From a virus, in the IMG/VR virus record IMGVR_UViG_3300042934_000314, positions 1-27,344 of that record: a DNA stretch of 27,344 bases; one strand, given 5' to 3'. Positions 2,465 to 18,871 of this stretch are shown piece after piece. A model generated the notes under the pieces. It did no database searches and was not told the DNA's origin. It saw only the letters and a program-made list of their open reading frames with translations. Positions within the stretch are counted from its first letter, which is position 1. Every line of letters starts with the position of its first letter. Made by a program: the position numbers and the translations under genes.

Positions 2465-2503
2465 TACATTTATATATACAAGTTTGCGAGTGAATTTTTA
2501 AAG
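2465..2503 (-). promoter_or_regulatory. Phage middle-type promoter for SSB/polymerase
   Basis: On the minus strand there is CTTTA (2503-2499), 18 nt, TGTATATAT (2480-2472), two bases and ATGTA (2469-2465). The same layout with the same spacing occurs at four other places in this window, always just upstream of a transcription unit. The -35-like box begins five bases after the sigma gene stop codon. Confidence 0.8.
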
Positions 2504-2507
2504 CGAA

Positions 2508-3131
2508 TTAAAAATTATTTTTACAAATACCATATTGTTTAAAACGTTTCTCTAATCTGCTAAAAATTCCCCGTATTGCTGGAACAGTAAGCCCTATCTC
2601 ATTAGCTATTTCAGCTTGAGTTAAGTTATGATTTTCCTGTAGTATAACTTTGCATACGCGATATTCGTTATCATCAAGAGTATCTTTTAAGGACTCTAAC
2701 AATATAGATACTTCAGAATTAACCACATCATGATTTCTTTTATCCTCTAGCATACCACCTAAAGTAGCAGACTCTCCAAAACTATTATCGTTGTTATATT
2801 CAGCATCCAAACTAAGATGCTGTTTTTTATATTTTACATGATTAATTAATGCGTTAGATAAACACTTATTGTAATATGTAATAAACCCAGCTGTGCTATT
2901 AGGTTCGTATGAATTTATAGCGTCAATTAATTTATCTTCAAATAACTCGAGTAATTCATGTTTATCTGGATAATCTGTTTTATAGTACAAGAAATAATTT
3001 ATTGTACCCTTAAGCTTGTATAAGATAGCTCTTAATAAAAATTCGTTACCACTATGCTTGTACTGTAATACACAATCCTGTAATCTAAGTTTGTCAAATC
3101 TTGTGTCATGAATAAAATAAACTGCATCCAT
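2508..3131 (-). CDS. Phage RNA polymerase sigma factor (sigma-70 family)
   Basis: A 207-residue sigma-70-like protein that should direct host RNA polymerase to phage promoters. The first half resembles region 2: a helical segment of about residues 25-110, including FEDKLIDAINSYEP and an aromatic-rich YYNKCLSNALINHVKYKKQ stretch that resembles the core-binding and -10-melting helices. The C-terminal third resembles region 4, with a clear helix-turn-helix (LTQAEIANEIGLTVPAIRGIFSRLEKRF, about 171-198) that would read the -35 box. Size and architecture are like short sporulation-type or phage sigmas, with no region 1.1. The start is ATG behind TTTGGAGG. Its own upstream region differs from the five shared promoters. 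It is the best candidate for the factor that recognises them, which is inference. Confidence 0.88.
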   Translation of the reverse strand: MDAVYFIHDTRFDKLRLQDCVLQYKHSGNEFLLRAILYKLKGTINYFLYYKTDYPDKHELLELFEDKLIDAINSYEPNSTAGFITYYNKCLSNALINHVKYKKQHLSLDAEYNNDNSFGESATLGGMLEDKRNHDVVNSEVSILLESLKDTLDDNEYRVCKVILQENHNLTQAEIANEIGLTVPAIRGIFSRLEKRFKQYGICKNNF

Positions 3132-3159
3132 TATTAATCATCCTCCAAATTTTAGTTTT

Positions 3160-3168
3160 TAGTGTTTA
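3160..3168 (-). promoter_or_regulatory. Shared leader 9-mer TAAACACTA (sigma leader)
   Basis: The second copy of the nine-base leader element, about 29 nt before the sigma factor start codon. It is shared with the SSB and GHKL leaders even though the sigma gene lacks the canonical shared promoter. This suggests a post-initiation or repressor role rather than a core promoter element. Confidence 0.35.
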
Positions 3169-3194
3169 GGTTTAATACGTATATGTATGCGACG

Positions 3195-3203
3195 TCACAC
3201 CAT
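3195..3203 (-). other. Two-codon minigene (ATG GTG TGA) with strong SD
   Basis: The minus strand reads AAAGGAGGGTAG and then ATG GTG TGA: a near-perfect Shine-Dalgarno followed by a start, one Val codon and a stop. It lies in the leader about 70 nt before the sigma factor start. No longer frame opens from this site, so the strong ribosome site is otherwise unexplained. It could act as a ribosome standby or translational control element, or as a leader peptide. Confidence 0.35.
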
Positions 3204-3246
3204 CTACCCTCCTTTCACATAGTTTACAGTTTTTTACTGAAATAAA

Positions 3247-3297
3247 GTCGAATGTAAAATATTTACATGTCGAATGTAAAATATTTACATGTCGAAT
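3247..3297 (-). repeat. Tandem palindromic repeats (candidate operators) in the sigma leader
   Basis: Two identical 22-bp direct repeats occupy 3247-3268 and 3269-3290, followed by a 7-bp partial third unit (3291-3297). Each unit holds an inverted repeat, ATGTAAA / TTTACAT, separated by three bases. The half-site ATGTAAA matches the ATGTA(A) element conserved downstream of the -10 box in the five shared promoters. A further ATGTAAATA half-site lies at about 3307-3315. As DNA these look like tandem operators; as RNA they would form two small stem-loops. Confidence 0.65.
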
Positions 3298-3334
3298 TTC
3301 CAATAAATGTAAATAATAGTTGTGTATTATTTTG

Positions 3335-3360
3335 TAAAAAAGTGTTGTTTTTTAACACTT
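3335..3360 (-). terminator. Hairpin with U-tract just downstream of a sigma-A-type promoter
   Basis: On the minus strand AAGTGTT, a seven-base A-rich loop, then AACACTT followed by T residues. It could terminate the long primase operon. It also starts only a few bases after the predicted start site of the promoter at 3371-3399, so it could act as an attenuator or as a 5'-terminal mRNA-stabilising hairpin. The stem is only 7 bp and A/T-rich. Confidence 0.5.
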
Positions 3361-3370
3361 ATTACTTATA

Positions 3371-3399
3371 ATTATACAAGGTTTTCGCAAATTTTGCAA
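3371..3399 (-). promoter_or_regulatory. Sigma-A-like promoter for the phage sigma factor gene
   Basis: On the minus strand TTGCAA (3399-3394), 17 nt, then TATAAT (3376-3371): a perfect -10 and a 4/6 match at -35 with optimal spacing. The predicted transcript would begin near 3364. It would carry a leader of about 230 nt with the hairpin, the tandem palindromes and the minigene before the sigma factor start at 3131. Host RNA polymerase should recognise it without phage factors. Confidence 0.6.
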
Positions 3400-3448
3400 T
3401 AACACAAATGGCATATATTGAACGCCTTGAATAGATCTTAATTTGACA

Positions 3449-4528
3449 TCACATATTTATAAATTGTTGCCTATCAAGCTCTTCCGAAGTAAAATTATTA
3501 GCGTCGTTCAGATGTGGAAATTGAGCATAATTTGGAACAAGTACTCTAAAATCTTTATAAGTTTGTTGGTATATAGTTTGTACAGCTTCCTTTCCCGCAT
3601 CATCGTTATCCATCCAAGCAACTAAATCTCGTATTCCATATCTAAGAAGTAATTCTTTTTGTAATACTCGCTTCTTAGATTTGTCTTCGAATAATATTCT
3701 TCCTAATAAACTGACTGCCGGATAGCCATTCTGAAATAAATAGCTTGCATTAAATTCCCCCTCAGTTAAAAATAAACCGTATCGTAAATAATTTTCTTTA
3801 AGTTTATTATTAGTACATGTTCCATTATTTATTGCTTGTATTAGTTGAAGAACTTGATGAAATCCATATAGCAAATGTTGTTTAGGAATTCCACTTTCAT
3901 TCATATATTTGTCCATGCCGGGCGGTGGATTTATATATCGTTTTTTAATAAACACTAGCCCTCCTTTGTGGTCACGCACTGGCATAGTTATAGCATTATT
4001 CCAAGTATCCAATCCGTACTCATAAAAAAGTATAGTGTCGTCAGTAAACTTACGAGAATATAGATAATCGCTAGTAAAACGATAATGATCTAACTCTGCT
4101 TCGTCTAGGTATTTATAAGGGGAGCTTCCAAGTCGCTCACGCTTATAATTTAATGGAATTTCAGGCCTAGAAGCAACATCCATAGTATTATATTTTCGTA
4201 GTATATATCGTTTACCAAATGACCTATCATTAGTACCCCAACAATACGAAGTAAACTCAAACAAGTCGGCCGTGTATCCACATGTAAAACAGTGAGCAGT
4301 ACCCGCTGGATACTGCTTTCCATTTCTAATTTTATCTACTAAGGTTATTCCGCACGACGGCTTGCTTTCTTGTCCATTATTATGATGAGGACACGTAACC
4401 ATGATATCGTTATTACTATGTTTGGTATCAGCTAATTTTAAAACTCCATTAGCATGTAGATCCGTTCTAAGATCCTCAACTATATTTTCTACGTCAGCAA
4501 GTATAACTACTCCATCAAGCGTTAACAT
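3449..4528 (-). CDS. DNA primase (DnaG-like, zinc finger plus TOPRIM)
   Basis: A 359-residue phage primase that would lay RNA primers for lagging-strand synthesis. The N-terminal zinc-binding domain has CPHH (C46, H48 or H49), C59 and a HCFTCG pair (C80, C83). The TOPRIM core has LTEGEFNA (about 254-261, catalytic E256) and the acidic WMDNDDAGKEA (D307, D309), followed by HLNDANNF (about 339-346). The helicase-interacting C-terminal domain of full-length bacterial DnaG is absent, as is common in phages. The start is ATG behind AAGGAGG and lies inside the end of the small upstream gene (14-nt overlap). The gene follows the helicase in the same operon. Confidence 0.92.
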   Translation of the reverse strand: MLTLDGVVILADVENIVEDLRTDLHANGVLKLADTKHSNNDIMVTCPHHNNGQESKPSCGITLVDKIRNGKQYPAGTAHCFTCGYTADLFEFTSYCWGTNDRSFGKRYILRKYNTMDVASRPEIPLNYKRERLGSSPYKYLDEAELDHYRFTSDYLYSRKFTDDTILFYEYGLDTWNNAITMPVRDHKGGLVFIKKRYINPPPGMDKYMNESGIPKQHLLYGFHQVLQLIQAINNGTCTNNKLKENYLRYGLFLTEGEFNASYLFQNGYPAVSLLGRILFEDKSKKRVLQKELLLRYGIRDLVAWMDNDDAGKEAVQTIYQQTYKDFRVLVPNYAQFPHLNDANNFTSEELDRQQFINM

Positions 4529-4703
4529 TATCCAAATCCTCCTTATGTAATCGCTTGTGTATCAAGATTCTGCAAGCCTTGCATAAAGCTATACTTGTCA
4601 TAAAGCCTGTATCTATCCCAATCTTAATCGACCGAACATCAATAATACCTCTATAGGAATTACACGCTCTATCATTTTTATCTTTGACTGCTTTTTCTAT
4701 CAT
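4515..4703 (-). CDS. Small cysteine-containing protein of unknown function
   Basis: A 62-residue basic protein between helicase and primase. It has C14 near the N-terminus and an LCKAC pair (C41, C44) before a helical, basic tail (ILIHKRLHKEDLD). This layout is typical of short phage proteins with a treble-clef-like knuckle, but with only three cysteines a zinc site is not certain. The start is ATG at 4703 behind AAGGAAG. The frame overlaps the primase start by 14 nt and follows the helicase stop by 12 nt, so it is translated as part of the replication operon. Its function is unknown. Confidence 0.65.
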   Translation of the reverse strand: MIEKAVKDKNDRACNSYRGIIDVRSIKIGIDTGFMTSIALCKACRILIHKRLHKEDLDNVNA

Positions 4704-4715
4704 AGAATCACTTCC

Positions 4716-6062
4716 TTAGAATAAATTATCTTTTATATTCTGCTGGTTCATTGACTTAAATATTCCGTAATCAATGTTCCATATAGCCATAAATTCTTGA
4801 CCCTTTTGTCCATATCTGTTTTTAGGAACCTTTATTTTAACTCCATTTTCTATTTGAGTAAACGTTATAAGCCGAGTTAAGTGATGAGTCATTGCATCAG
4901 CTCCAAATGCATCTTCTAATTCAGGAGTTGCATTTTCGTCTCGTTTTTTACTGGCTGCCGCAGTTCTTCCTGCCTGATGGAGTATCATTACTGGAGTTTG
5001 ATAGTCTTCTGTAAATCTAGCTAAATCTTCTGATATATTTCCATATCGAATTCTTTCTTCTCTACCCTTTCTGTCATCGTCCATAAGAGATAATTGATCT
5101 AAACCCCAAAAATCAAAATTAAATTTATCTTGTAACACTCTCATTTTATTAACAGACATTCTACCGTCTACATCTTTTTGAGTAAATACTCTGAATCCCG
5201 GCATGCTTCCAGTTACTAAGGAATTAATATAATCCCTGTAATCGTTCATACTTTTTGATCCCACTTCTGGATCGTCTGGTTTACCCAAATCAGCATTTCC
5301 CCCGACAAGTCCACTGTTTCTAAAATGTTTATGCACAGTATCAAATCTAAATCCATACATTATGGAAGACATTTCTCCAGAATATATAGCTACATTTTTA
5401 CCCGAAAGCCAAGCAACAATAGCAAAATATAAAAGCAACCATGATTTACCTTCATTAGTTCTAGCAATTACTCCAATTAAATCTTCTGGTAGCCATCCGT
5501 GTAAGGCTTTAGTCATCTCTTCTAGACCACAAGGAATGCCCATTAATCCGTTAAGCTCAACTCTTTTTATATAGTCTTCAAGCCTTTCATTAGCACCTCT
5601 TATTATATCAGTTCCGCCACCAATAGTATGCTTTGAAAATCGGTATAATTTATCCATCTCCTGTTTAGCAAAGTCAATTGCCTCAAAACTGCTAGTTTTA
5701 CTTTTTTGAGCGCCCTCTTGAAGAGCTTGCACAAACAGGCTATAGCACTTCTGTTCTAGCAACTCCTCACACATTGTATTAACTGCATTTCCAGTATCAA
5801 ATAATGGAAAGTCTGGAAAATCAAATGCAAATTTAACTTTATCGGGAACACATCCAGTTCCGTCTCGTAATTTAGAGGTACTAAAATAGTTGATAATGTA
5901 GTTATACTCTTTCTCGTATCCAGGAAAATAAGTTTCATCAAGTTCATGTTCTAATATGGGTTTTATACTATTGTTGTTAAGTAACCAATTTATAAATTGA
6001 ACATGAATAATACTATCTTGTACATTACTTTGTTGTGACTGCTCATTCATATCTTCGCTCAT
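4716..6062 (-). CDS. Replicative DNA helicase (DnaB-like)
   Basis: A 448-residue hexameric-type helicase that would unwind DNA at the fork. The N-terminal helical domain covers about residues 15-145. The RecA-like motor starts near residue 179 (CGLEEMTKALHGWLPEDL), with Walker A ARTNEGKSW (200-208), the catalytic-Glu element YSGEMS (E230), a Walker B-like DFWGLDQLSLMD and an LHQAG sensor where DnaB proteins usually have a SQL-like motif. The C-terminal KNRYGQKG is typical of DnaB-type DNA-binding or arginine-finger regions. The Walker A lacks the usual first Gly (Ala200). The protein ends in DNLF. Its ATG overlaps the stop codon of the loader gene (TAATG), showing translational coupling. Confidence 0.92.
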   Translation of the reverse strand: MSEDMNEQSQQSNVQDSIIHVQFINWLLNNNSIKPILEHELDETYFPGYEKEYNYIINYFSTSKLRDGTGCVPDKVKFAFDFPDFPLFDTGNAVNTMCEELLEQKCYSLFVQALQEGAQKSKTSSFEAIDFAKQEMDKLYRFSKHTIGGGTDIIRGANERLEDYIKRVELNGLMGIPCGLEEMTKALHGWLPEDLIGVIARTNEGKSWLLLYFAIVAWLSGKNVAIYSGEMSSIMYGFRFDTVHKHFRNSGLVGGNADLGKPDDPEVGSKSMNDYRDYINSLVTGSMPGFRVFTQKDVDGRMSVNKMRVLQDKFNFDFWGLDQLSLMDDDRKGREERIRYGNISEDLARFTEDYQTPVMILHQAGRTAAASKKRDENATPELEDAFGADAMTHHLTRLITFTQIENGVKIKVPKNRYGQKGQEFMAIWNIDYGIFKSMNQQNIKDNLF

Positions 6063-6727
6063 TATTTAACACCCCTTTTCGATCTGCCTCTAAATTGAAG
6101 AGATTCGCAGTCCCTAAGTCTATCCGAAATTCTACTTCCTAAAGATTCTGCGATTTGCTCTAAACTACAATTACTAGTGTATATAGTTGAACGATTGTTG
6201 CTGTACCTTTCATCAATAATATTAAGCAGTCTCTCTCTTACCCATTCTGAAGTTTTTTCAGCTCCAAGGTCATCTACAATGAGCAAAGGTATTTTTTCTA
6301 CTAACTCTAAAACAGTTCCGAATGATGGATCAGGATCATTAAACTGTTTTCGCATATCCTCTAAAAACTTAGCAGTTTTTATAAAATACATCACTGGTTC
6401 CATTTTAAATTTGTTTATAGTAAGTCTGGCATATTTGTTTGCAAGTGAACAGGCAAGGGTTGTTTTACCAGTTCCTTTTCCCTCTCCCCATAACAGTAAG
6501 CTGTTCCCTTGATATACCCACGTATCAGCAGATTGCATAATTTCAGCTACTCTAGAGTATACCACCTCGTCAATTGGTTCAATCATTAGTTGCCTAGGAT
6601 ACTGATACCTAAGAGGAATGTTACTTTGTTTATATATAATATCAAACATTACAGCACCTTCACAAAAATTATTACAATGCTGTGGAGCTTGTTTACAATA
6701 TTCTGTTACCTGACATCGTTGTTCCAT
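6062..6727 (-). CDS. DnaC/IstB-like AAA+ helicase loader
   Basis: A 221-residue ATPase that should load the adjacent helicase. Walker A is WGEGKGTGKTTL (81-89 core), Walker B is LLIVDDLGAE (148-157), sensor 1 is YTSN (183-186), and the Arg-rich GSRISDRLRD (about 197-206) carries the likely arginine finger. These match DnaC and DnaI-type loaders. The first 22 residues hold four cysteines (C5, C11, C18, C22), a possible zinc knuckle that recalls the N-terminal zinc-binding domain of DnaI-type loaders but is much shorter. The C-terminus is basic (GRSKRGVK). It lies immediately upstream of the helicase with a one-base stop/start overlap. Confidence 0.9.
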   Translation of the reverse strand: MEQRCQVTEYCKQAPQHCNNFCEGAVMFDIIYKQSNIPLRYQYPRQLMIEPIDEVVYSRVAEIMQSADTWVYQGNSLLLWGEGKGTGKTTLACSLANKYARLTINKFKMEPVMYFIKTAKFLEDMRKQFNDPDPSFGTVLELVEKIPLLIVDDLGAEKTSEWVRERLLNIIDERYSNNRSTIYTSNCSLEQIAESLGSRISDRLRDCESLQFRGRSKRGVK

Positions 6728-6737
6728 GTAATACCTC

Positions 6738-7406
6738 CTAATATATTGAGTGCTCTTTTAAATTTAAGTCTAATCCCCATAGTTTATTGATATTAAGATA
6801 TCCTGAATATCTATTGCCATTAGAAGTAAATTTAAACATATCGTATTTTTTTAGAGTCTCAAGTACCTTGTTAGGATTATCTCCACAATAAAATACATAG
6901 TTTTCTATTGCTTGACGATCACCTACTTTACACATAGCCTGAATTCTAATGTTACCACGACTAACCTCATAGATACAATCATTAAAAGAACCATAAACTC
7001 TAGAACCTGATTGAGTTTTTTCATAATCGAAGCTTCCGGGTCCTGGACCTGTATAGCTTGAATCTGAGTAAGTATTACTTCCAGACCTAGATTGATTATT
7101 TCTTTTATTGGAACGTCCCGCCTCTCTAGCCCTTCTAAAGATATCATTCCATTCCTTAGTGAAGATATCGTCAAATCCATAAAATCCTTCAGAGCTATAA
7201 TTATTGCGTGTATTATAAGATTTCCTACCTAGCTGATCATCCATCATTCGTCTCTCGTAGTTTTGTTTATAGTTATCCGCGTTTATATTATTACTTTTAC
7301 ATTTTCTATGAAAGACGTTAAGACTAGCTTCCTTTTCGCCCGGCGATGTACTTTTATGATAGTATCTAGACAAGATACTATCCAACGTCTCATTTAAGTT
7401 AGACAT
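6738..7406 (-). CDS. DUF2786-like N-terminal protein of unknown function
   Basis: A 222-residue protein in three parts. Residues about 5-40 (LDSILSRYYHKSTSPGEKEA and onward) resemble the helical DUF2786 segment found in many phage proteins. Residues about 60-130 are polar and low in complexity (Arg, Asn, Ser, Gly, Tyr), probably disordered and able to bind nucleic acid. The C-terminal 90 residues look globular (VYGSFNDCIYEVSRGNIR, then a helical VLETLKKYDMF). The gene lies between RNase HI and the helicase loader with short gaps, so a role in replication or nucleic acid handling is plausible. The DUF2786 match is by eye and tentative. Confidence 0.6.
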   Translation of the reverse strand: MSNLNETLDSILSRYYHKSTSPGEKEASLNVFHRKCKSNNINADNYKQNYERRMMDDQLGRKSYNTRNNYSSEGFYGFDDIFTKEWNDIFRRAREAGRSNKRNNQSRSGSNTYSDSSYTGPGPGSFDYEKTQSGSRVYGSFNDCIYEVSRGNIRIQAMCKVGDRQAIENYVFYCGDNPNKVLETLKKYDMFKFTSNGNRYSGYLNINKLWGLDLNLKEHSIY

Positions 7407-7420
7407 CCAATTATCCCCCT

Positions 7421-7936
7421 TTAGCTTACAGACAATTTACCCTTTACTGCAAGCTTGTCACATACTTCGTTATACAAGACTCCCTTATGCCCTCTTATTT
7501 TCGTCCACAATATAGTAATATTATTATCTTTTGCACACTGCTCCGCGCTAATAAGCCGTTGCCATAAATCTTTGTTAGCAATTGGAACTAACTTTCCAGA
7601 ATCATCTCGTTTTGTCCAATCATTAAATCTCCAATCTATGTACCATTTTTCTACCATACCCCGATAAACATATGCGCTATCTGTGATTATTTCTATAGCA
7701 TCGTAATGTATGCTATCTAGCTCATGACGATGTATTCTATCCTCTAATCCTCTAATAACTCCCATTAACTCCATTCGCTGATTAGTTGTTGGTTTTTCCC
7801 CATCCCAACCAGTACAAATTAACATATTATTATACACATAGGCGTAAGCCCACCCTCCAGGAACCACTTCGGCCCTAGGAGTACTTGCTCCGTCTGTATA
7901 TAGCTGTATTGTAGCGTGTGTCAATTCCCCGCTCAT
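7421..7936 (-). CDS. Ribonuclease HI
   Basis: A 171-residue RNase H that would remove RNA primers from RNA-DNA hybrids. The four catalytic carboxylates are visible: D15 in LYTDGAS, E56 in RMELMGV, D86 in ITDSAYV and D160 in NEVCDKLA. They come with the usual NxRMEL context and the conserved RGHKG loop (H150), which carries the catalytic-cycle His. Length is typical of RNase HI. The start ATG overlaps the stop of the MazG-like gene by one base. The gene sits in the replication operon upstream of loader, helicase and primase. Confidence 0.95.
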   Translation of the reverse strand: MSGELTHATIQLYTDGASTPRAEVVPGGWAYAYVYNNMLICTGWDGEKPTTNQRMELMGVIRGLEDRIHRHELDSIHYDAIEIITDSAYVYRGMVEKWYIDWRFNDWTKRDDSGKLVPIANKDLWQRLISAEQCAKDNNITILWTKIRGHKGVLYNEVCDKLAVKGKLSVS

Positions 7937-8247
7937 TATATCTGCCTCCTAATATTATCGGCAATCATCATACAAAAATTAGCTACGTCGGCGCATTCTT
8001 GTATTATTGCTTGAGGAGAATGATCCAGTAATAATGCGTTAGTTAATTCGTCTAACTCGTCTACAACTCTATCTAATAAATCATTAACATTAGTATCCTT
8101 CCATCCTGGTTTGTCATCGTTACTTTGTAGTTTTAATTCCATCATAGTAGCAAACCACTCTACACTTGATCGTAAACCTTCGTTATTTACTGGCACCAAG
8201 CTAATACTAGTTTTATTCGAATTTGACAGATCTTTAATACTTTTCAT
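7936..8247 (-). CDS. MazG-like NTP pyrophosphohydrolase
   Basis: A 103-residue all-alpha NTP pyrophosphatase-like protein. It has the signature of paired acidic helices: FATMMELKLQSNDDKPGW (about 32-49), VVDELDELTNAL (about 61-72) and IIQECADVANFCMMIAD (81-97), with E84 and D87 in the second metal-binding helix. The ECADVANFxMM ending is typical of phage members of this family, which remove unwanted (d)NTPs or modulate nucleotide pools. Its start overlaps the YkgJ-like gene by 14 nt and its stop overlaps the RNase H start. The substrate cannot be told from sequence. Confidence 0.8.
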   Translation of the reverse strand: MKSIKDLSNSNKTSISLVPVNNEGLRSSVEWFATMMELKLQSNDDKPGWKDTNVNDLLDRVVDELDELTNALLLDHSPQAIIQECADVANFCMMIADNIRRQI

Positions 8248-8614
8248 TATTATTCATCTCCTTTAATTCTTTCATGTAGCCACAAGTATCTGTATAAAAT
8301 GAATAATTCATTCCATGGTGTCTTCCGTAAAAAGGATACCCAGTACATACGTGTGGTTGACCTTTTTTGTGAACAGTGCATTTATTATTATTCAGCAAAT
8401 TACAACGATAAAAATATATCGCGATCTTCTGTTCGTTGTGAAGGTTTATCCATTTTGTTAAATATGGATTGATTTTAATAGCCTCTTCTTCTGTAATAGG
8501 GCTCCAGTTAGTAACAATAAAATGAGCCTCATTGGTACTAAAACTTTTTAATTCTTTTAAGGAATACCCTAACATAATAGCTTTACAGCAGGTACCGCAC
8601 TGATTACACGGCAT
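8234..8614 (-). CDS. YkgJ-family cysteine cluster protein
   Basis: A 126-residue protein with the YkgJ metal-chelating layout: MPCNQCGTCCK at the very start (C3, C6, C9, C10), CNLLNNNKCTVH (C71, C79, H82), PHVCTGYPFY (C90) and C111. Family members are annotated as putative zinc or iron-sulfur chelating proteins. The family's biochemical role is poorly known and in phages is unexplained. The start is ATG at 8614, one base after the XapX stop codon, with its GGAGG inside the upstream gene. The context is nucleotide metabolism and replication. Confidence 0.85.
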   Translation of the reverse strand: MPCNQCGTCCKAIMLGYSLKELKSFSTNEAHFIVTNWSPITEEEAIKINPYLTKWINLHNEQKIAIYFYRCNLLNNNKCTVHKKGQPHVCTGYPFYGRHHGMNYSFYTDTCGYMKELKEMNNNEKY

Positions 8615-8615
8615 A

Positions 8616-8783
8616 TCACATTCCTCCTTTCTGAAACCACAACATAATTACATAGCCTAAATATATGCCTACTATTCCCATGACTCCTACTAAGCTTGGT
8701 GGAGCTGGTAACGGAAGCTTTAGTTTAGTGCATAAGGCTCCAACTATAATACCAGTTAACAGTGCTTTAATAATTAATGCCAT
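8616..8783 (-). CDS. XapX domain small membrane protein
   Basis: A 55-residue protein with two hydrophobic segments: residues about 2-18 (IIKALLTGIIVGALC) and about 31-49 (LVGVMGIVGIYLGYVIM). They are separated by a KLKLPLPAPPS linker. The pattern GxxVGxL, then LPxPAPPxLxGVxGIxGxxLGY, is the XapX (DUF1427) family signature, a short two-helix membrane protein of unknown function. ATG at 8783 is preceded by AAGGAGGAACATAA. The C-terminal codons contain the ribosome site for the next gene. XapX proteins are mostly bacterial, so a copy inside a phage replication operon is unusual. Confidence 0.82.
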   Translation of the reverse strand: MALIIKALLTGIIVGALCTKLKLPLPAPPSLVGVMGIVGIYLGYVIMLWFQKGGM

Positions 8784-8849
8784 TTATGTTCCTCCTTATA
8801 TTTGCTTATATATTATTATATGCAGATGAACTGCTGAATATAACCTAGA

Positions 8850-10001
8850 TTAAAATACTTGATGTTTAACATTTTCATTTTGGAATTGAATGGGTTCTGT
8901 TTCAATTTTAGACTTTTCTGCATAATAAAAATTTTCTAAAAGTTTATTAAATACCCAAGTAATTCCAAGTTGATATACTTTTGGACGCCTATAATCTTCG
9001 CTATAAAATAATTTTTGATAGTTAGCTATGTAGTAGTTAATTGCTCCAATTAAAACACTTGGTTCCATATCTTTAAGACGATTTTTTATTGCGGCGGTAT
9101 CTTTTATTCTATCGACCACTAACATTTCCCCCGGATACTGTAATTCGTATTTATGTTTAAAGTACTTGCAATAGTCTAAAGGTTTTAAATCTTCTAAATT
9201 ACCTATCATAATACGAACCACAGGATCCTTGTCGTTCCATTTATCGTTTTGCATAGATTTTATTTTTTCTTGTTTAGATTTAAAACTAATAGGAGTGCTC
9301 GGTGATTTAAAGCTAATTTCAAAATTATCTTCGTTCTGCTTGTTATCAGTACAATTTGAAGTTTCAACAACTTCGTCCACTTCATCATCGTACCCATACT
9401 TCTCAGTTTGGGGAACTTCTTCTTCTTCAAACATACTAATAATTTCTTCTGGCGTCGCAATTTCTCCTTCTATAATCTCGCTTGAGCGCTCTCCAGTTAT
9501 AATATATTGTAAATCAAACGCCTCTTCATTGATGCTTTGGATCCCACTATTAGTTTGTACTTTTATAGTGTTTAATCCAGATATGGCATGTTTAACTTCA
9601 ATGTTTCTCGTGGCGGCAATTCTTATTCTGTCAGCTTCGCTTAAGCTTGGTAATATATTTAATATATAGATCGAACTCTTTTTTCCATTAATAGAACAAT
9701 TTCTGTAAATGACAGTTACCATTCCAGACTCTACTAATCTTTTTAAATGTATCTGTACAGCTCGTACGCTCAATCCCATGTAATTAGATAGAGTATCTAG
9801 ACTAGGATCGCACCATCCCTTTCGTTTTCCGTCCTTATCCATAAAATCAAATGTACACAGTATTTCGAATAAAACTCTTTGCTGAGCTGGAATGTTACCA
9901 TTTCTTATAAAGGAATTAGGAAATATACAATAGGAGATTAAATCCTCAAAGTTTATGTTGCTTACCTTATTTGAAAGTGTTACCTTAAAATCATTATTCA
10001 T
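8850..10001 (-). CDS. Winged helix-turn-helix protein, probable replication initiator/DnaD-like
   Basis: A 383-residue protein. Residues about 30-120 form a winged HTH: QRVLFEILCTF, then LDTLSNYMGLSVRAVQIHLKRLVESG, then a YRNCSINGKKSSIYIL wing. This is the arrangement seen in phage replication initiators and DnaD N-terminal domains. A long acidic, probably disordered linker (about 180-245; EEIISMFEEEEVP, DDEVDEVVE) leads to a helical C-terminal domain (about 260-365; LDYCKYFKHKYELQYPGE, VLIGAINYYIANYQKLF) of the type often found in such initiators. It is the first gene of the helicase/primase transcription unit and has its own shared promoter and upstream terminator. The initiator role is inferred from context; a transcription regulator is possible. 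Confidence 0.7.
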   Translation of the reverse strand: MNNDFKVTLSNKVSNINFEDLISYCIFPNSFIRNGNIPAQQRVLFEILCTFDFMDKDGKRKGWCDPSLDTLSNYMGLSVRAVQIHLKRLVESGMVTVIYRNCSINGKKSSIYILNILPSLSEADRIRIAATRNIEVKHAISGLNTIKVQTNSGIQSINEEAFDLQYIITGERSSEIIEGEIATPEEIISMFEEEEVPQTEKYGYDDEVDEVVETSNCTDNKQNEDNFEISFKSPSTPISFKSKQEKIKSMQNDKWNDKDPVVRIMIGNLEDLKPLDYCKYFKHKYELQYPGEMLVVDRIKDTAAIKNRLKDMEPSVLIGAINYYIANYQKLFYSEDYRRPKVYQLGITWVFNKLLENFYYAEKSKIETEPIQFQNENVKHQVF

Positions 10002-10025: not shown

Positions 10026-10064
10026 TACATTAGTATATACAGTATTACAAACTGATAAATAAAG
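10026..10064 (-). promoter_or_regulatory. Phage middle-type promoter for the HTH/helicase/primase unit
   Basis: On the minus strand ACTTTA (CTTTA at 10064-10060), 18 nt, TGTATATAC (10041-10033), two bases, ATGTA (10030-10026). It matches the other four shared promoters in boxes and spacing. The -35-like box overlaps the 3' arm and U-tract of the preceding terminator. Confidence 0.8.
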
Positions 10065-12378: not shown

Positions 12379-12417
12379 TACATACATATATACAAAAATT
12401 CATGTGTTTTTATAAAG
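12379..12417 (-). promoter_or_regulatory. Phage middle-type promoter for the ligase unit, embedded in a terminator
   Basis: On the minus strand ACTTTA (CTTTA at 12417-12413), 18 nt, TGTATATAT (12394-12386), two bases, ATGTA (12383-12379). The -35-like box lies in the loop of the preceding terminator hairpin, and the 3' arm of that hairpin is the promoter spacer. The leader to the ligase start is about 130 nt, long for this genome. Confidence 0.78.
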
Positions 12418-12453: not shown

Positions 12454-12945
12454 TTAATAGTTAATGTCATTGTAAGCAGTTTTTACTCGCTTTCTAACGT
12501 TAGATAACATATGTTTACGAGCTTCCTTTATGGTTAATATTTGTTGCTGTGTTTGTAACTTCTTAGCAACCTTATTTACATTATTTCGATATTGTTGTCG
12601 CAGTTTACGCCCCTCACGACTTCGATCCTGTTTTATCTCCTTCCCACGTTCCCCCCACCTAGTTCTAGAAAATTTAGATACATCTCCGTACTTAATATTC
12701 TTGCTAAATTCAACAAGCTGACTAATTTCCATTTCTGTCCAACATCTTACTTCATTTTTTCCAATACGAGTACTTTTTGGAATCAACCTAGACTTACCAT
12801 CAGACTCCAATTCATCGGACCAGCTATCCCATAACTGAACTGTTTGGCGACTCTTTCCAACAATTTCAGCTACTGTTCCAACTCTAAAGTATTCAATTCC
12901 ATCAATAATTTTAAAAGGCTTGTATATCTTTTTTACATAGGACAT
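12454..12945 (-). CDS. MerR-like helix-turn-helix DNA-binding protein
   Basis: A 163-residue basic protein. Residues about 20-42 (FRVGTVAEIVGKSRQTVQLWDSW) form a MerR/excisionase-type HTH. A segment with a MerR-like wing follows (SRLIPKSTRIGKNEVRCWTEMEISQLVEF). The C-terminal half is very basic and helical (RTRWGERGKEIKQDRSREGRK, then NNVNKVAKKLQTQQQ), which suggests nucleic acid binding or multimerisation. It could be the regulator of the ATGTAA-containing operators or promoters, which is inference. It is the last gene of its unit, 18 nt after the dCMP deaminase, and a strong terminator follows. Confidence 0.75.
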   Translation of the reverse strand: MSYVKKIYKPFKIIDGIEYFRVGTVAEIVGKSRQTVQLWDSWSDELESDGKSRLIPKSTRIGKNEVRCWTEMEISQLVEFSKNIKYGDVSKFSRTRWGERGKEIKQDRSREGRKLRQQYRNNVNKVAKKLQTQQQILTIKEARKHMLSNVRKRVKTAYNDINY

Positions 12946-12963
12946 GTTACTCCCTCCTATTCA

Positions 12964-13422
12964 TTATTTCCAATCCTTAACTAAATATATATTATACGCT
13001 CCGTAATCGTTTCCAGGAACTATAACTCTCGATATTCCGGAATTAATTATTAATTTTTTACATATTTCACATGGCATTATATTTTTAGGGCAGAGCATAG
13101 TGTTTCTATCGATTCCAGACAAATACAAGGTAGCGTTATTCAACATATTTCTAGGAGCTTGCAAAATTGCATTAGCTTCGGCATGAACGGATTTACAAAG
13201 TTCATATCTTTGTCCACGAGGAATTTGTAGCCTCTCTCTAATACAACTACCATGTTCGTTACATTTCTTTCTTCCGATTGGAGAAGCGTTATATCCAGTA
13301 GCTATGATATTATCGTATTTAACAATAACTGCTCCATAACTTCGTCTAAGACACGTTGAGTTAGATAATAATTGATTACAGATAGTTAAATATTCAAAAT
13401 GTTTATCCAAAATAGAGTCCAT
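12964..13422 (-). CDS. dCMP deaminase (zinc-dependent)
   Basis: A 152-residue deaminase that would convert dCMP to dUMP for dTTP synthesis. The zinc site is H80-A-E-A-N (catalytic E82) and P-C118-E-I-C121. It also has the family's N-terminal LLSNSTCLRRSYGAVIVKYDNIIATGYN and a Cys-rich insert (C54, C60, C76) typical of dCMP deaminases that bind a second zinc. Length matches ComEB and phage homologues. Its ATG overlaps the stop of the zinc-finger gene (TAATG) behind AAGGAG. In a phage with an AT-rich genome it would bias precursors toward dTTP. Confidence 0.92.
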   Translation of the reverse strand: MDSILDKHFEYLTICNQLLSNSTCLRRSYGAVIVKYDNIIATGYNASPIGRKKCNEHGSCIRERLQIPRGQRYELCKSVHAEANAILQAPRNMLNNATLYLSGIDRNTMLCPKNIMPCEICKKLIINSGISRVIVPGNDYGAYNIYLVKDWK

Positions 13423-13706
13423 TAAAAAAGTCTCCTTCCAACTAGTTTAATTTGTTTACTCTCGTTAAGCTGTGTAAAAATTTTATACTCTTCCATAGTT
13501 TTAGAATGAATTTGGTGTACATGATTTTTTAGATTAACCACATACACCTCACATATTTCGCATTTATACATACTACGTTTACTATACTTATTGCATTTGT
13601 CCTTATTGATATCTTGAATTACCGTATTTTTTAGCCGGCAGATTTTTTTAATTATAGAACAATTACTGCAAGTATAACAATTTTCTACGATTACCACAGC
13701 GCTCAT
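13422..13706 (-). CDS. Small C2H2/Cys-rich zinc finger protein
   Basis: A 94-residue protein when started at the ATG at 13706. An upstream in-frame ATG at 13772 would add 22 residues but overlaps the small membrane gene and has a poorer ribosome site, whereas GGAGACCGTTA precedes 13706. It has an N-terminal cysteine group (CYTCSNC, then C22, and a further Cys near residue 38) and then a C2H2-like finger, CEICEVYVVNLKNHVHQIH. It ends in GRRLF. It is basic and probably binds nucleic acid. The start overlaps the preceding stop and the end overlaps the dCMP deaminase start, so it is tightly coupled to both. Confidence 0.7.
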   Translation of the reverse strand: MSAVVIVENCYTCSNCSIIKKICRLKNTVIQDINKDKCNKYSKRSMYKCEICEVYVVNLKNHVHQIHSKTMEEYKIFTQLNESKQIKLVGRRLF

Positions 13707-13816
13707 TAACGGTCTCCAGAATCGCCAAAAGATACCGTAATAAAAAGTACACACAAACACACCGCACCACATACCCAGAATATAGCCTCTTTTAAATTAG
13801 GCCCAATATCATACAT
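13706..13816 (-). CDS. 36-residue Cys-rich single-pass membrane peptide
   Basis: A short ORF starting at ATG 13816 behind GGAGGAAATCAA. About ten polar residues are followed by one hydrophobic segment (AIFWVCGAVCLCVLFITVSFG, about 11-31) with three cysteines, and a GDSGDR end. Its stop overlaps the zinc-finger gene start (TAATG), and its start overlaps the end of the 79-residue gene by 8 nt. Overlaps at both ends and the good ribosome site support a real gene. The role is unknown; a membrane or host-takeover function is possible. Confidence 0.6.
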   Translation of the reverse strand: MYDIGPNLKEAIFWVCGAVCLCVLFITVSFGDSGDR

Positions 13817-14048
13817 TTGATTTCCTCCTTGACACTTCAATTAGGGTATCAGCCTTGAACTTAAACTCGTCAGCTCCCCCGAGCATTCCTTTAGACATAA
13901 CTTCAATCACTGTTCCGCTAGAGGTAAAAATCGGATTAATTATAAATACTTCCGATATATACTTTCCTCCATCGGTTATAATAATGTCGTGTTCCTGTAA
14001 ATCTTGTGCTAATATTTTAATATCTTCAAATTCCCTCGTTTTAAACAC
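13809..14048 (-). CDS. Small beta-rich protein of unknown function
   Basis: A 79-residue protein with a short N-terminal helix (FEDIKILAQDL) and then alternating strands (DIIITDGGKYISEVFIINPIF, then GTVIEVMSK, then TLIEVSRRKSNV). It is likely a small barrel or SH3/OB-like fold. No catalytic motif is seen. The start overlaps the 3' end of the SNF2 gene by 8 nt, behind the AAAGGAGG in that gene's last codons, so it is translationally coupled. Its function is unknown. Confidence 0.7.
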   Translation of the reverse strand: MFKTREFEDIKILAQDLQEHDIIITDGGKYISEVFIINPIFTSSGTVIEVMSKGMLGGADEFKFKADTLIEVSRRKSNV

Positions 14049-15741
14049 CTCCTTTATTATCTAAATCTAATAGCTTACATAGTACGTCACCAGTGTTTCT
14101 AAATTTAACTACCCCGTCAACTACCTGATCAATGTAAAACTGATCGTTTTCTAATATTTCCTCAACCCGCTCATCGACAGTGTCTTTTACAATAACAGAT
14201 ATTACTGTAACTGTGTCTTCACTTCCTATTCTGTGACACCGATCCTCTGCCTGAGCATTGTTTCCCACAGTCCAATCCTTATTTAAAAATATTACATAGT
14301 TACTTTTAGTTAATGTATAACCAGTTCCTAGAGTAGCAATAGTTCCCATCATCACTTCAGATAGCTTTGTGGATTGAAACTTATTAACATAGGATTGTCT
14401 TATTTCTGGATCCTTCTCGTCTCCAGTTATAACGTACATTTGTTTATCTGATAAAGTAGTTTGTAAGTCATATATTCCTTGTTTATACTGACTAAAAATT
14501 ACAGCTGAGTTATCATTTTCAAATAATTCATCAATTAGGGACTTAACTGCTCGTTGCTTTATCGTATCAGTAAACTGTCTTAATTTAATCGTAGCTACTG
14601 CTGGATTTAGGTATTTTACATCGCCAGATTCTAAGTCACGTATAATGCCTCGCTTTATAGAGTTATATTCAGATTGTTCGTCTTTTGTCATATCAACGTA
14701 TACTGTTTGATACAGCTTAGGAGGTAGTTCTAAGATGTCTTTAGTTCGTCTTACTTGGTACCGATCAAGTATTTCGTGAAGCTCGTCCATATTTCGATAG
14801 CTTACAACATCCCAACCGCTATAACCTCCAAGCACACAATATCTTTTAACAAAGCTCCAATAAGAGTCAGTAATAATACCCATCCAAGTCAGCAAGTTCC
14901 AAAGTCTTTCTACTCTCTTTGTAATCGGAGTTCCAGTTAGTGCAATTTTAAATCTTGAGTTTAACCTAACTAAGTTGGATCCTTGAGTGGATCTATGATT
15001 GGCCATTTTATGCACTTCATCGGCTATAATCATTCCAATTTCTCCAGTGTCAATTAAACTTTCTAAAATTTCCACTATCTCGTCATTTCTTAACATTTCT
15101 ACATTAATTATATTATAGTAAAACATCCCAAGGTTATTAAGTTTTTCCAGTTTCTTTTTCTTAGTCCCATCAATAACTTGACAGTTATTCCAAGAATGTT
15201 TTTTAATTTCGTCAACCCAATTGTATTTTATCGAGTTAAGCCCGCATATAATTAAACAATGCTTTACCTGTCCGTTATACTTCTTGAAATCGGCAATATC
15301 TAACGCTTGCTTAGTCTTACCGAGTCCCATAACATCAGTAATAAATATACTATTGTAATGTAAAGCATAATTAAACGATTCTATTTGGTGACCTTTTGGG
15401 GCGGTTTTAAATTTATAATCCACCTCTGGTTTTATATTTTTATAAAACTCTTTTAGTTCTTCTGGACTCTTTTTTCCTTTTACATGTTTGTTTCTATATT
15501 CTATAAATTGTTCATATTCTGGAAAGCTTGTAAACAATTGAATATTATCCACTCCAAATAAATTTACAATTCGATTAATCGAATCTATTGGAACTTCCCA
15601 TACTTTTTCATTTGCAATGTAGCGTCTTACGGGTAACGACTTTACTTTTTCTATTAAGCCGTAATCAAATGTTTTAAATTTAATAAATGCAGAGTATTCC
15701 GACTTTAATTCTATGCTTGGGTATTTACCGAGTAGTATCAT
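14041..15741 (-). CDS. SNF2-family DNA-dependent ATPase/helicase
   Basis: A 566-residue superfamily 2 motor. Residues about 16-65 (FIKFKTFDYGLIEKVKSLP, then RRYIANEKVWEVP) resemble the HARP-like segment found ahead of SMARCAL1-type and many phage SNF2 proteins. The motor has Q-like APKGHQIESF (about 114-123), Walker A DVMGLGKT (136-143), IIADEVHKM (DEVH 241-244), LTGTPI (268-273), and a C-terminal RecA lobe with IFSQY, TLGTGYTL and motif VI QAEDRCHRIGS. Phage SNF2 proteins are thought to remodel forks or assist recombination and replication restart. It is first in a run of overlapping small genes and has a 5' leader with a very stable hairpin. Confidence 0.93.
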   Translation of the reverse strand: MILLGKYPSIELKSEYSAFIKFKTFDYGLIEKVKSLPVRRYIANEKVWEVPIDSINRIVNLFGVDNIQLFTSFPEYEQFIEYRNKHVKGKKSPEELKEFYKNIKPEVDYKFKTAPKGHQIESFNYALHYNSIFITDVMGLGKTKQALDIADFKKYNGQVKHCLIICGLNSIKYNWVDEIKKHSWNNCQVIDGTKKKKLEKLNNLGMFYYNIINVEMLRNDEIVEILESLIDTGEIGMIIADEVHKMANHRSTQGSNLVRLNSRFKIALTGTPITKRVERLWNLLTWMGIITDSYWSFVKRYCVLGGYSGWDVVSYRNMDELHEILDRYQVRRTKDILELPPKLYQTVYVDMTKDEQSEYNSIKRGIIRDLESGDVKYLNPAVATIKLRQFTDTIKQRAVKSLIDELFENDNSAVIFSQYKQGIYDLQTTLSDKQMYVITGDEKDPEIRQSYVNKFQSTKLSEVMMGTIATLGTGYTLTKSNYVIFLNKDWTVGNNAQAEDRCHRIGSEDTVTVISVIVKDTVDERVEEILENDQFYIDQVVDGVVKFRNTGDVLCKLLDLDNKGGV

Positions 15742-15771
15742 TTTAGTTTCCTCCTGTTTGATATAACAAAT

Positions 15772-15795
15772 GGGGTAACAATTACTTGCTACCCC
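15772..15795 (-). promoter_or_regulatory. Stable GNRA-capped hairpin in the SNF2 leader
   Basis: On the minus strand GGGGTAGCAA, the loop GTAA, TTGTTACCCC: a 10-bp stem (one G-U pair) closed by a GNRA-type tetraloop. It ends about 30 nt upstream of the SNF2 start codon and has no U-tract directly after it. It is unusually G-rich for this genome. It could be an RNA-processing site, a 5' stabiliser or a protein-binding operator. Confidence 0.55.
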
Positions 15796-15883
15796 CGCCT
15801 TCCATTATATGTAATTATGTAATTAAATTTTTAGAATTAGATTAAATTCGCTAGCCGAGTACAACATACGCAAATTATATAAG

Positions 15884-15924
15884 CAGTAAAGTAAGCTTTA
15901 AGCCAGCGAATACTTACTTTACTG
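15884..15924 (-). terminator. Long perfect hairpin right after the low-complexity protein gene
   Basis: A 12-bp perfect inverted repeat (CAGTAAAGTAAG / CTTACTTTACTG) with a 17-base loop, starting three bases after the stop codon. The minus-strand sequence after the stem, CTTATATAATTT, has only a short T stretch. It may be a weak or partial terminator, or an mRNA 3'-end stabiliser that separates the abundant upstream message from SNF2. Confidence 0.55.
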
Positions 15925-15926
15925 AC

Positions 15927-16868
15927 CTATTCAGCAGTTACTGAATCTGTCTTTACTTCTTCTGTCTTTACTTCTTCTGTCTTTACTTCTTCTGTCTTTA
16001 CTTCTTCTGTCTTAGTTTCAGCTTTCTTATCTGACTTTAAATCTTCCGCAGTTACTTTCGTAACCTCTTTAGGCTTTTTTTCAGACTTTGGTAACAAGCC
16101 TCTACAAATTTTAATATACTTATCAGCTTGTGGGAAGGACATTCCTGCAACTTCTCCATATTTATAAATAGCATCCATTAAGCTAACTCCAGTTATAAGC
16201 ACTTCGCCTTTAACTTCTTCATAGTTTTGAATAATGTCAACATCGTGTGGATTAACTCCGTTTTTACCTGACACAAGCACAACAGCTGGAGCACCTTCTC
16301 CATCTTTAAACTTATACACCTCAGTAGTTCTATTTTTATCACTATAACGATTGATGTGTAATCCAATTGTATCGGATAGTTTAATATCCTCAGTATCCAA
16401 AGGTTTTTGATCTGGAAGTATTACTTTAACTTGAACAGTTCTTTCAACTGCACCAGTTGGCAAGTTAAATGTCATTTTTACTGGATCAGGTTTTTTAGTT
16501 TCTACTTTGTCTGATTCCTTATTAGTCTCAGTTGATTTCTTATCATCAGATTCGCCATCTTTTTTGGAGTCAGCTTTTCCTTTTCCTTTTCCTTTTCCTT
16601 TTCCTGATCCCTTCTTTTCATTCTTAGCATTCACAGTAGTAACTGCTCCAGATACTTCTAAACCTTCTAGTGATTCAGTAGCATTAAGCACTGCTATAGC
16701 TTCCTCTTTAGTGCCGCCATACTCGTCAGTTAAAAAGTCTGCCGCTTTTTCATAGTTTGGGAATGGAAACTCTAGTCCCGCATCATTAATATTAACTCTT
16801 ATCAGTTTGTTTCCTTCCTTTACTAAAGATAGATCAAATGATTTTCCCTTGAATTCAAATTTTGCCAT
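15927..16868 (-). CDS. Low-complexity acidic/basic protein with KTEEV repeats, function unknown
   Basis: A 313-residue protein that I do not recognise. An N-terminal globular part (about 1-80; FPNYEKAADFLTDEYGGTKEEAIAVL) is followed by a GKGKGKGKGK stretch (about 89-98) and a charged linker to about 128. A middle domain follows (about 130-262; MTFNLPTGAVERTVQVKVILP, then YSDKNRTTEVYKF, then VSLMDAIYKYGEVAGMSF). The tail has five KTEEV-type units (about 286-308). Both low-complexity stretches come from tandem DNA repeats. It has its own shared promoter and a structured leader, suggesting high expression. It may be a scaffold or DNA-associated protein; there is no firm homology. Confidence 0.7.
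   Translation of the reverse strand: MAKFEFKGKSFDLSLVKEGNKLIRVNINDAGLEFPFPNYEKAADFLTDEYGGTKEEAIAVLNATESLEGLEVSGAVTTVNAKNEKKGSGKGKGKGKGKADSKKDGESDDKKSTETNKESDKVETKKPDPVKMTFNLPTGAVERTVQVKVILPDQKPLDTEDIKLSDTIGLHINRYSDKNRTTEVYKFKDGEGAPAVVLVSGKNGVNPHDVDIIQNYEEVKGEVLITGVSLMDAIYKYGEVAGMSFPQADKYIKICRGLLPKSEKKPKEVTKVTAEDLKSDKKAETKTEEVKTEEVKTEEVKTEEVKTDSVTAE
15946..16013 (-). repeat. 15-bp tandem repeat encoding KTEEV units
   Basis: Four exact copies of a 15-bp unit at 15946-16005, then a partial copy to about 16013. The unit is a multiple of three and encodes Lys-Thr-Glu-Glu-Val in the C-terminal tail of the low-complexity protein. Exact copies suggest recent slippage expansion and likely length variation between related phages. 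Confidence 0.9.
16575..16604 (-). repeat. 6-bp tandem repeat encoding Gly-Lys units
   Basis: Five exact copies of the plus-strand hexamer TTTTCC, which encode alternating Gly-Lys in the linker of the same protein. This is a second independent slippage-prone tract in one gene. Confidence 0.9.
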
Positions 16869-16914
16869 TTTGTGTACCTCCTAAATTTATTATTAATTAT
16901 TTTATAATTGGGTT

Positions 16915-16943
16915 GTGTTAACTTCCTGGCAAGTAATTAACAC
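16915..16943 (-). promoter_or_regulatory. Imperfect hairpin in the leader of the low-complexity protein gene
   Basis: On the minus strand GTGTTA, a 3-base bulge, ACTT, the loop GCCAGG, AAGT, TAACAC. It lies between the shared promoter and the start codon. It may be a regulatory or stabilising 5'-leader structure. Confidence 0.4.
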
Positions 16944-16970
16944 TAGTTTACAACTTTCTTGTTTGTTGCT

Positions 16971-17009
16971 TACATACATATATACAAGTTTAGGATTGAT
17001 TTTTTAAAG
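16971..17009 (-). promoter_or_regulatory. Phage middle-type promoter for the low-complexity protein gene
   Basis: On the minus strand ACTTTA (CTTTA at 17009-17005), 18 nt, TGTATATAT (16986-16978), two bases, ATGTA (16975-16971). The spacer shares AAACT before the TGTATATAT with the SSB promoter. The leader to the ATG is about 105 nt. Confidence 0.8.
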
Positions 17010-17097
17010 TGAATTTTAAATATTTTTAGATTTATCAATCGTTATTTTTATAGTTTAATAAAGTTGTTTAATTTTAATTCGTTATTAAAGTACTAAA

Positions 17098-18792
17098 TCA
17101 TAGACTAGACAGTAACAATCCAATTTCCTTGGATATTTTATCTATCTTGTTATAATGATCTACAGTCCCTTCTACAGTGTTGTAAACCAATATAGCTAAT
17201 CCACTCGCAATGGTTTGTATATTTAGCATTACAACTAATACATCGAACTTTGTTATGTTAGCTTTAGATTTGATAACATCCACTTTACCTAAGTTTAATG
17301 ATTTTCTATCTAAGTAAATTCTATTTCTGTCTTTCATTGTGGCGGAAGATTTTTTAGCCAACTTATCTATAAGAGTACGTTCTCCATCCTCTACTAGTAT
17401 ATGCTCTTTTATGTCGCCAATTCTAAATACATCCTTCAAATCGAATGACTCTTCTATACAGCGAAGTACGTTTAGTAACCTAGCTTCCTTATAAGTAACA
17501 TCATCGTCTTTAGTTGAAACTCTATTAATCACATATGAGGATACAGTTTTCTTAAATACATCCTCTATGTATGGAACCCGTAAGTATTCGTAGGCCTTAT
17601 CAGTTAGTTTATTCCAGGAATAATACACATGAACTTCAAGTTCATGAGCCTTAGCAATAAGTTCCAACAGTTCATCTTTCTTCCTGGATTCTACCCAAAC
17701 GCTATTGATTAGTTTTTTATTCTTTAAAAATTTAGGATACGACTTAGTTTTATCTTGTGATACAGTTTCATCGAATACAGTTTCTCCTGAATGACAACTC
17801 GATTTCTGAGGTTCTTCAAAGAAGTCGTTATCTACAATTACTTGATTAGCTACTGGAACTTTTGCAATAGCTTCAAAGTCTGGCAAGTAGTCTATGTAGT
17901 CCTTGGGAGTTAGATACTCGTCGATATAGTCGGCATACTTTTCAAAAGCTTTTGAATCAGGTTCGCTAGATATAAATTCCTTATATACATGTGTAGCATC
18001 TTCGATAAGTTGATTTTCTAGCTTCCTATGCAGTTCGTCCCTAATAATTGATTTTCTATCAGGCGCTTTTAAATTAACAGCTCCCTCCTTAAGTTCAATT
18101 TTTCCGGTAATTCCACGAACCCAAATATCAGTTACTTTTCTTTTTTCAAAGAACACCTCACAGTCTCTCCAACCGCTTTGTACTCCTAAAATCGCTTCGT
18201 ACATCTCATTGTTAAAGCCTAGTTTGTACTCCGAACTTACGGTTAACAGCGGAGTGTATTCTAATACTTTTCCGTTTATATAACACGTATAGGGATAGTG
18301 GGATAATGTCTCTGAAAGATATGACGCTATTAATTCTATGTTGCCGGCAATTTTTTCTCCACTTCCGTAAATTTCATAACCCGCTAAGTAAGGCATCTCG
18401 TCAACATCGACTTTTAGATTTTCGGTTTCTAAAATCTGATTTACATCGACAGTACACTGCCATCCATGACTTCTAATAATAAATACATCAGCGATTTGAA
18501 ATATACTTTCCGAACCTCCTTGCCCAAAAGCTGATTGAATATCCCAACCAGATTTCTCAAATTCGAAGATTGACTGAGGATCTTCGCAACCACTTCCATT
18601 ATCCCTTATAATAAAATAATCTTTTCCTACAACAACATCGATTACTGGAGTTTCAGTTTTACTTACTTTAAAGCTTCTCTGACAGTTCTGAAGTAGTTCA
18701 TCTAGAACTGTTTCTATGTTTCCATATACAATTCCTTGACGAATTTTACGCAAACGATTATAAGTGTTTACTTTAATTTGTACATCTGTCAT
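17098..18792 (-). CDS. GHKL-superfamily ATPase of unknown role
   Basis: A 564-residue protein whose N-terminus carries the Bergerat ATP-binding fold. It has the N box ETVLDELLQNCQRS (E32, N36), the G1 box IIRDNGSGCEDP (D64, G66, G68), and the G2-like ATP lid SAFGQGGSESIF (about 87-98) followed by strands. It most resembles the HSP90/MutL/MORC-like branch rather than a histidine kinase: no H-box or DHp helix is visible. Residues about 120-300 look like the ribosomal S5-type transducer seen in MutL and gyrase. The rest (about 330-564) is unrecognised. It stands alone as a transcription unit between the late terminator and the next shared promoter. It could be a DNA clamp, remodeller or topoisomerase-related protein; the role is unknown. 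Confidence 0.82.
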   Translation of the reverse strand: MTDVQIKVNTYNRLRKIRQGIVYGNIETVLDELLQNCQRSFKVSKTETPVIDVVVGKDYFIIRDNGSGCEDPQSIFEFEKSGWDIQSAFGQGGSESIFQIADVFIIRSHGWQCTVDVNQILETENLKVDVDEMPYLAGYEIYGSGEKIAGNIELIASYLSETLSHYPYTCYINGKVLEYTPLLTVSSEYKLGFNNEMYEAILGVQSGWRDCEVFFEKRKVTDIWVRGITGKIELKEGAVNLKAPDRKSIIRDELHRKLENQLIEDATHVYKEFISSEPDSKAFEKYADYIDEYLTPKDYIDYLPDFEAIAKVPVANQVIVDNDFFEEPQKSSCHSGETVFDETVSQDKTKSYPKFLKNKKLINSVWVESRKKDELLELIAKAHELEVHVYYSWNKLTDKAYEYLRVPYIEDVFKKTVSSYVINRVSTKDDDVTYKEARLLNVLRCIEESFDLKDVFRIGDIKEHILVEDGERTLIDKLAKKSSATMKDRNRIYLDRKSLNLGKVDVIKSKANITKFDVLVVMLNIQTIASGLAILVYNTVEGTVDHYNKIDKISKEIGLLLSSL

Positions 18793-18813
18793 AAATTTAA
18801 CCTTCCTTTCGTG

Positions 18814-18822
18814 TAGTGTTTA
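18814..18822 (-). promoter_or_regulatory. Shared leader 9-mer TAAACACTA (GHKL leader)
   Basis: The third copy of the nine-base leader element, about 22 nt before the GHKL start codon and about ten bases downstream of the ATGTA element. Confidence 0.35.
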
Positions 18823-18832
18823 GTTTTAAAAT

Positions 18833-18871
18833 TACATTTATATATACATTAAAAACGTATAAAATATAAAG
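18833..18871 (-). promoter_or_regulatory. Phage middle-type promoter for the GHKL gene
   Basis: On the minus strand ACTTTA (CTTTA at 18871-18867), 18 nt, TGTATATAT (18848-18840), two bases, ATGTA (18837-18833). It lies about 20 nt after the terminator of the late operon. Confidence 0.8.

Follow-up and report, generated by a model that had tools for sequence, protein, structure and literature searches.

Sigma cascades are known from phage SPO1. Regulons of phage-encoded sigma factors with diverging promoters have been established experimentally in phiEco32 and 7-11, where several near-identical sites precede operons, namely the late promoters of Salmonella phage 7-11 (sigma gp47) and the middle/late promoters of phiEco32 (sigma gp36) (PMC8948821). 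The window analysed here, which is an entire IMG/VR record of 27,344 bases, likewise carries a predicted sigma gene and several near-identical sites before operons. The boxes of 7-11 and phiEco32 diverge with their sigma factors (GTAAtg-16-aCTA vs tAATGTAtA; PMC8948821), as do those of the window and its relatives. Both of those phages infect enterobacteria; the window class instead serves replication genes and keeps a constant distance between the -35 and -10 boxes across diverged phages. The 7-11 motif computed in one study (PMC4331800) differs from the motif that was later mapped (PMC8948821), which is a caution for predicted phage promoters. By analogy, the window class may work like these established regulons.

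Two other systems share parts of the layout. T4 middle promoters (MotA/AsiA) also combine a phage-specific upstream box with a sigma-70-like -10 element, but T4 keeps and remodels the host sigma-70, whereas the window phage has a separate sigma gene. The late promoters of Listeria phage CKA15, whose host is Gram-positive, carry a TGYTATAWTA motif without a sigma-A -35 box; unlike the window class, they have no conserved -35 box at all and belong to a P100-like group (PMC12282133). The pneumophages Dp-1 (sigma gp69) and MS1 (sigma gp74) share the window's DnaB-DnaG-sigma-SSB-PolA gene order, and the MS1 sigma is homologous to that of the window (23 per cent identity). Both carry GTTTA-N20-TATATT before the SSB gene, and MS1 also before DnaN, with boxes unlike those of the window (GTTTACA, GTGTATATTAnnGTATAA). 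The MS1 promoters were predicted with BPROM, and the class shared by the two phages is not described there (PMC5511896). In the literature searched, whose coverage left out most subscription journals, we found no description of the window's promoter layout; the lineage and its promoter sequences appear to be undescribed in that literature.

Five sites and the genes behind them

The polymerase gene is truncated at the end of the window, which is therefore a fragment of a larger phage, so that the early genes and most late genes fall outside it. Its annotated genes are encoded by the minus strand. An exact pattern search found five copies of CTTTA-N18-TGTATATAY-NN-ATGTA (P1 to P5, Table 1), all on the minus strand, where an order-3 Markov estimate predicts 9e-6 exact matches by chance. 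There is no sixth copy in the window with up to three mismatches, and at that threshold dinucleotide shuffles gave a mean of 0.10 matches. The coordinates, strand, 18-nt spacing and three boxes given in an initial annotation of this DNA were all reproduced, as was its observation that an A lies 5' of CTTTA at four of the five sites. With a weight matrix trained on P1 to P5 themselves, these sites scored 34-44, the runner-up in the window was an intragenic match at 13.3, and the reversed matrix reached 9.6. By pattern and matrix alike, several near-identical bipartite sites precede phage operons and strong matches elsewhere in the window are absent.

Each site lies directly 5' of a transcription unit, as had been proposed, with gaps of 41, 24, 132, 102 and 40 nt from ATGTA to the start codon for P1 to P5. 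The sites also do not fit the host sigma-A pattern (TTGACA-like, 16-18 nt, TATAAT-like), as they have CTTTA at -35 and 20 nt between it and TATATA. Since TATATA is close to sigma-A-like boxes, the class is distinguished mainly by CTTTA and the longer distance to the -10 box.

Read from right to left, the window holds tail-fibre-like, holin-like and endolysin genes, the P5 unit, the P4 unit, the ligase behind P3, the P2 operon, the sigma gene and the P1 unit. The P2 operon runs from the replication-initiation-like gene through RNase H, a DnaC-like loader and a DnaB-like helicase to the primase, with the sigma gene next. No site precedes the endolysin, holin or tail-fibre-like genes (18.9-27.3 kb). 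The claim that all units encode replication, nucleotide or regulatory functions and none is structural stands in part: three units are of this kind and no recognisable structural gene lies behind any site, but the first genes after P4 and P5 are unassigned. A second dyad in the window, TTACT-N18-TCTGTCT, was set aside, as all but one of its copies belong to a 15-bp tandem repeat within the gene at 15927-16868. This repeat (TTACTTCTTCTGTCT, plus strand, 15938-16018) gives the 313-aa product a short repeated peptide near its C-terminus.

Table 1. Predicted promoters and assigned genes in the window.
Feature	Position	Strand	Details
P1, predicted promoter	2465..2503	-	CTTTA 2499-2503, N18, TGTATATAT 2472-2480, AA, ATGTA 2465-2469; predicted to drive SSB and DNA polymerase A
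P2, predicted promoter	10026..10064	-	predicted to drive the replication-initiator-like gene and operon to helicase, primase and possibly sigma
P3, predicted promoter	12379..12417	-	predicted to drive ATP-dependent DNA ligase
P4, predicted promoter	16971..17009	-	predicted to drive a 313-aa protein of unknown function, perhaps a SNF2-like helicase beyond
P5, predicted promoter	18833..18871	-	predicted to drive a 564-aa protein of unknown function
Single-stranded DNA binding protein, first after P1	1800..2423	-	phrog_14578, E=1.8e-43
ECF-like sigma factor, 207 aa, proposed reader of P1 to P5	2508..3131	-	phrog_351, E=1.4e-12; AlphaFold model
Sigma-A-like promoter TTGCAA-N17-TATAAT	3371..3399	-	10/12 consensus bases; in noncoding leader of sigma gene
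Replication-initiation-like protein, first after P2	8850..10001	-	phrog_270, E=6e-10
ATP-dependent DNA ligase, first after P3	10921..12246	-	phrog_114, E=1e-93

Geometry and site class in relatives

The full motif was present in three of the 2.9 million viral contigs scanned, two of which are true relatives. Proteins of these two (L007 and L008) are about 42-79 per cent identical to those of the window. In L007/L010 the site precedes the SSB gene, the position orthologous to P1, and in L008/L011 it precedes the initiator gene, the position orthologous to P2; L020 retains a variant site before SSB. The site in L006 is probably a chance match, as a single weak polymerase match ties this contig to the window. 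A motif scan of a genome collection gave four matches, about the number expected by chance, none in a genome encoding relatives of the window proteins. One of them, in Clostridium guangxiense (L154), follows a terminase-like gene and so has a suitable position, in what is apparently a prophage unrelated to the window. Neither the window nor its relatives L024 and L047 had a megablast match among named phages.

More than 100 further loci were gathered through primase and helicase alignments, and in many of these relatives a homologous sigma gene lies beside the primase. Protein searches with the window sigma alone confirmed no relatives in viral contigs. We counted gapped pairs with no motif preset, and in several phages the top pair was a dyad resembling -35 and -10 boxes whose copies precede genes. 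An unsupervised motif search of leaders returned the ribosome-binding site instead. Five large diverged relatives were then scanned by matrix over their whole records, giving 7-12 strong sites apiece, most of which lie between genes and are oriented with the coding strand. Their boxes are CTTTA/TATAAT with ATGTA downstream (G001), CTTTA/TATATT (G003), CTTAA/TATAAC (G004), CTCAA/TATAAT (G005) and CTTTA/TATGTT (G007), compared with CTTTA/TATATA in the window. One distance is common to all six: the -35 box is followed by exactly 20 nt and the -10 hexamer.

Nearly all sites of the five relatives fall in the replication half. Structural genes, located with MS1 proteins in four of the five, occupy a separate part of the genome that has no site; none were located in G005 with these proteins. 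Sites outside the replication part are one in G007 (at 3358) and a weaker one in G005 (at 62784, opposite strand). A few relatives (L044 and L047) have a sigma gene yet carry another repeated dyad, TCTAAA-N16-GATTAAGTTA, also directly behind the sigma gene, which weighs against the sigma-regulon reading.

We compared 42 non-redundant helicase/primase loci, nineteen with a full-length sigma gene and twenty-three without; these are windows of ~14-27 kb, and a sigma gene could sit beyond a locus. Loci with the gene held 73 phage-type sites (45 expected) and 19 sigma-A-type sites (13 expected). Those without it held 43 phage-type sites (50 expected) and 54 sigma-A-type sites (11 expected). Because relatives that carry the sigma gene had served to define the phage-type pattern, it is the sigma-A count that provides independent evidence here. 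Judged from these sequences, site class is associated with whether a locus encodes a phage sigma (Fisher p = 7e-7, which is indicative only because the loci share ancestry and are not phylogenetically independent). The dedicated phage promoter class proposed in the initial annotation is thus favoured by conservation at orthologous positions, fixed geometry, restriction to the replication module and association with a sigma gene.

The sigma gene as candidate reader

The initial annotation overlooked the sigma gene, which adjoins P1 and would account for the promoter class. Its AlphaFold (AF2) model has a pLDDT of 84, and among the matches listed nearly all fold matches are sigma factors. Against E. 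coli sigmaE region 2 in complex with its -10 strand, the model aligns with Z 9.9 and rmsd 2.2 over 91 residues, and it includes a region-4-like helix-turn-helix at the C-terminus. The PHROGs profile and the model together identify a phage-encoded sigma with both region 2 and region 4. Three relatives carry a second sigma-like gene 5' of the helicase-loader region in addition to the primase-adjacent one (L054:1193-1765, L052:7446-8036, L082:3915-4535). ORFs of 66-91 aa with strong sigma-profile matches (E 1e-12 to 1e-18) occur in L083, L103, L107, L109, L115, L117, L129, L130 and L131, all loci without a full-length sigma gene; these are perhaps one-domain derivatives.

The sigma gene has a noncoding leader of 317 nt (3132-3448). 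Since a sigma-70 promoter scan across the region was at chance level, the evidence for the sigma-A-like promoter in this leader is its conservation in L010, and it can also be made out in L011. At the matching place before its own sigma gene, the MS1 record annotates a sigma-70-like promoter. Conservation of the leader promoter and the MS1 annotation suggest that the first step is driven by the host sigma. The leader also contains two exact 22-bp tandem copies (3247-3290) with an incomplete third. A terminator-like hairpin directly follows the promoter, and a two-codon ORF (ATG GTG TGA) comes after a ribosome-binding site. These elements may regulate the sigma gene by attenuation or through an operator.

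We consider it probable (about 0.85) that P1 to P5 are promoters that define a single regulon and are recognised by host core RNA polymerase with the phage ECF-like sigma. We infer sigma binding, start sites and timing as follows. Early in infection, host sigma-A would make the phage sigma from the leader promoter. CTTTA, at about -37 to -33, would be the contact of region 4 of the phage sigma. Region 2 would engage and open TGTATATA, whose hexamer TATATA lies at about -12 to -7, and transcription would start within the ATGTA element. The phage sigma would then activate the units of SSB and polymerase, of initiator, helicase and primase, and of the ligase, as well as two further units, and by way of P2 it may also raise its own expression. 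A cascade from the sigma-A promoter through the sigma factor to the replication operons is likely.

Alternatively, host sigma-A could read TATAWW, with CTTTA bound in lieu of a -35 box by an activator of the phage or by the sigma-like protein as co-activator, as by MotA at T4 middle promoters. The -10 hexamers are compatible with this, being TATAAT in G001 and G005 and TATATA or TATATT elsewhere, and the TGA-TATAAT of G001 resembles an extended -10 element of sigma-A. We nevertheless find this arrangement unlikely, since a two-domain sigma lies beside the primase in many relatives, loci without sigma bear standard TTGACA-type promoters instead, and CTTTA sits, at a single fixed distance, near the position expected for sigma region 4.

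Terminator-like hairpins at the predicted promoters

A stem enclosing the -35 box, with a T-tract in the spacer, was found at seventeen of fifty-one sites, compared with 1.8 expected from shuffles that retained the boxes. This arrangement is strongest in G004 (seven of ten sites). The -35 box of P3 lies in the loop of a hairpin resembling an intrinsic terminator, with the T-tract in the spacer. P2 has a hairpin (AGTGGCTTTAA/TTAAAGCCACT) whose stem ends within the -35 box, and P5 has a separate intrinsic-terminator-like hairpin just upstream (18892-18925), behind the endolysin gene. Besides the window (12379-12417), -35 boxes in terminator-like stem-loops were seen in G004 (L141-L144), G003 (L138-L140) and G005 (L145-L148). 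The T-tracts favour putative terminators over operators.

The inverted repeats around some sites would also be expected if these were binding sites of a repressor, an origin-binding protein or another DNA-binding factor and not promoters, which we regard as very unlikely: all are oriented with the genes and lie 24-132 nt 5' of start codons, their layout is that of -35 and -10 boxes, and the T-tracts behind the stems are consistent with terminators. A single-subunit RNA polymerase encoded by the phage, with promoters of its own, would explain near-identical, rigid and phage-specific sites. This is the least probable reading, since T7-type promoters are contiguous and the sites here are split into two boxes by 18 nt of variable sequence, and no RNA polymerase gene is among the annotated genes of this 27,344-nt partial contig.

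Within the sigma regulon that we favour, we tentatively suggest, at somewhat less than even odds, that this phage family often fuses a sigma promoter with the putative terminator of the preceding operon. Such an element of ~50 bp would end one operon and start the next, with the -35 box in the stem-loop, the T-tract serving as spacer, and boxes that drift with the sigma factor at a fixed 20 nt. If true, terminator-promoter fusion would be a new variant of phage transcription system. An uncharacterised phage family, distantly related to Dp-1 and MS1, gains a predicted sigma factor together with its promoters, and its diverged sigma/promoter pairs at fixed spacing offer a data set for the evolution of sigma specificity and for orthogonal expression parts.
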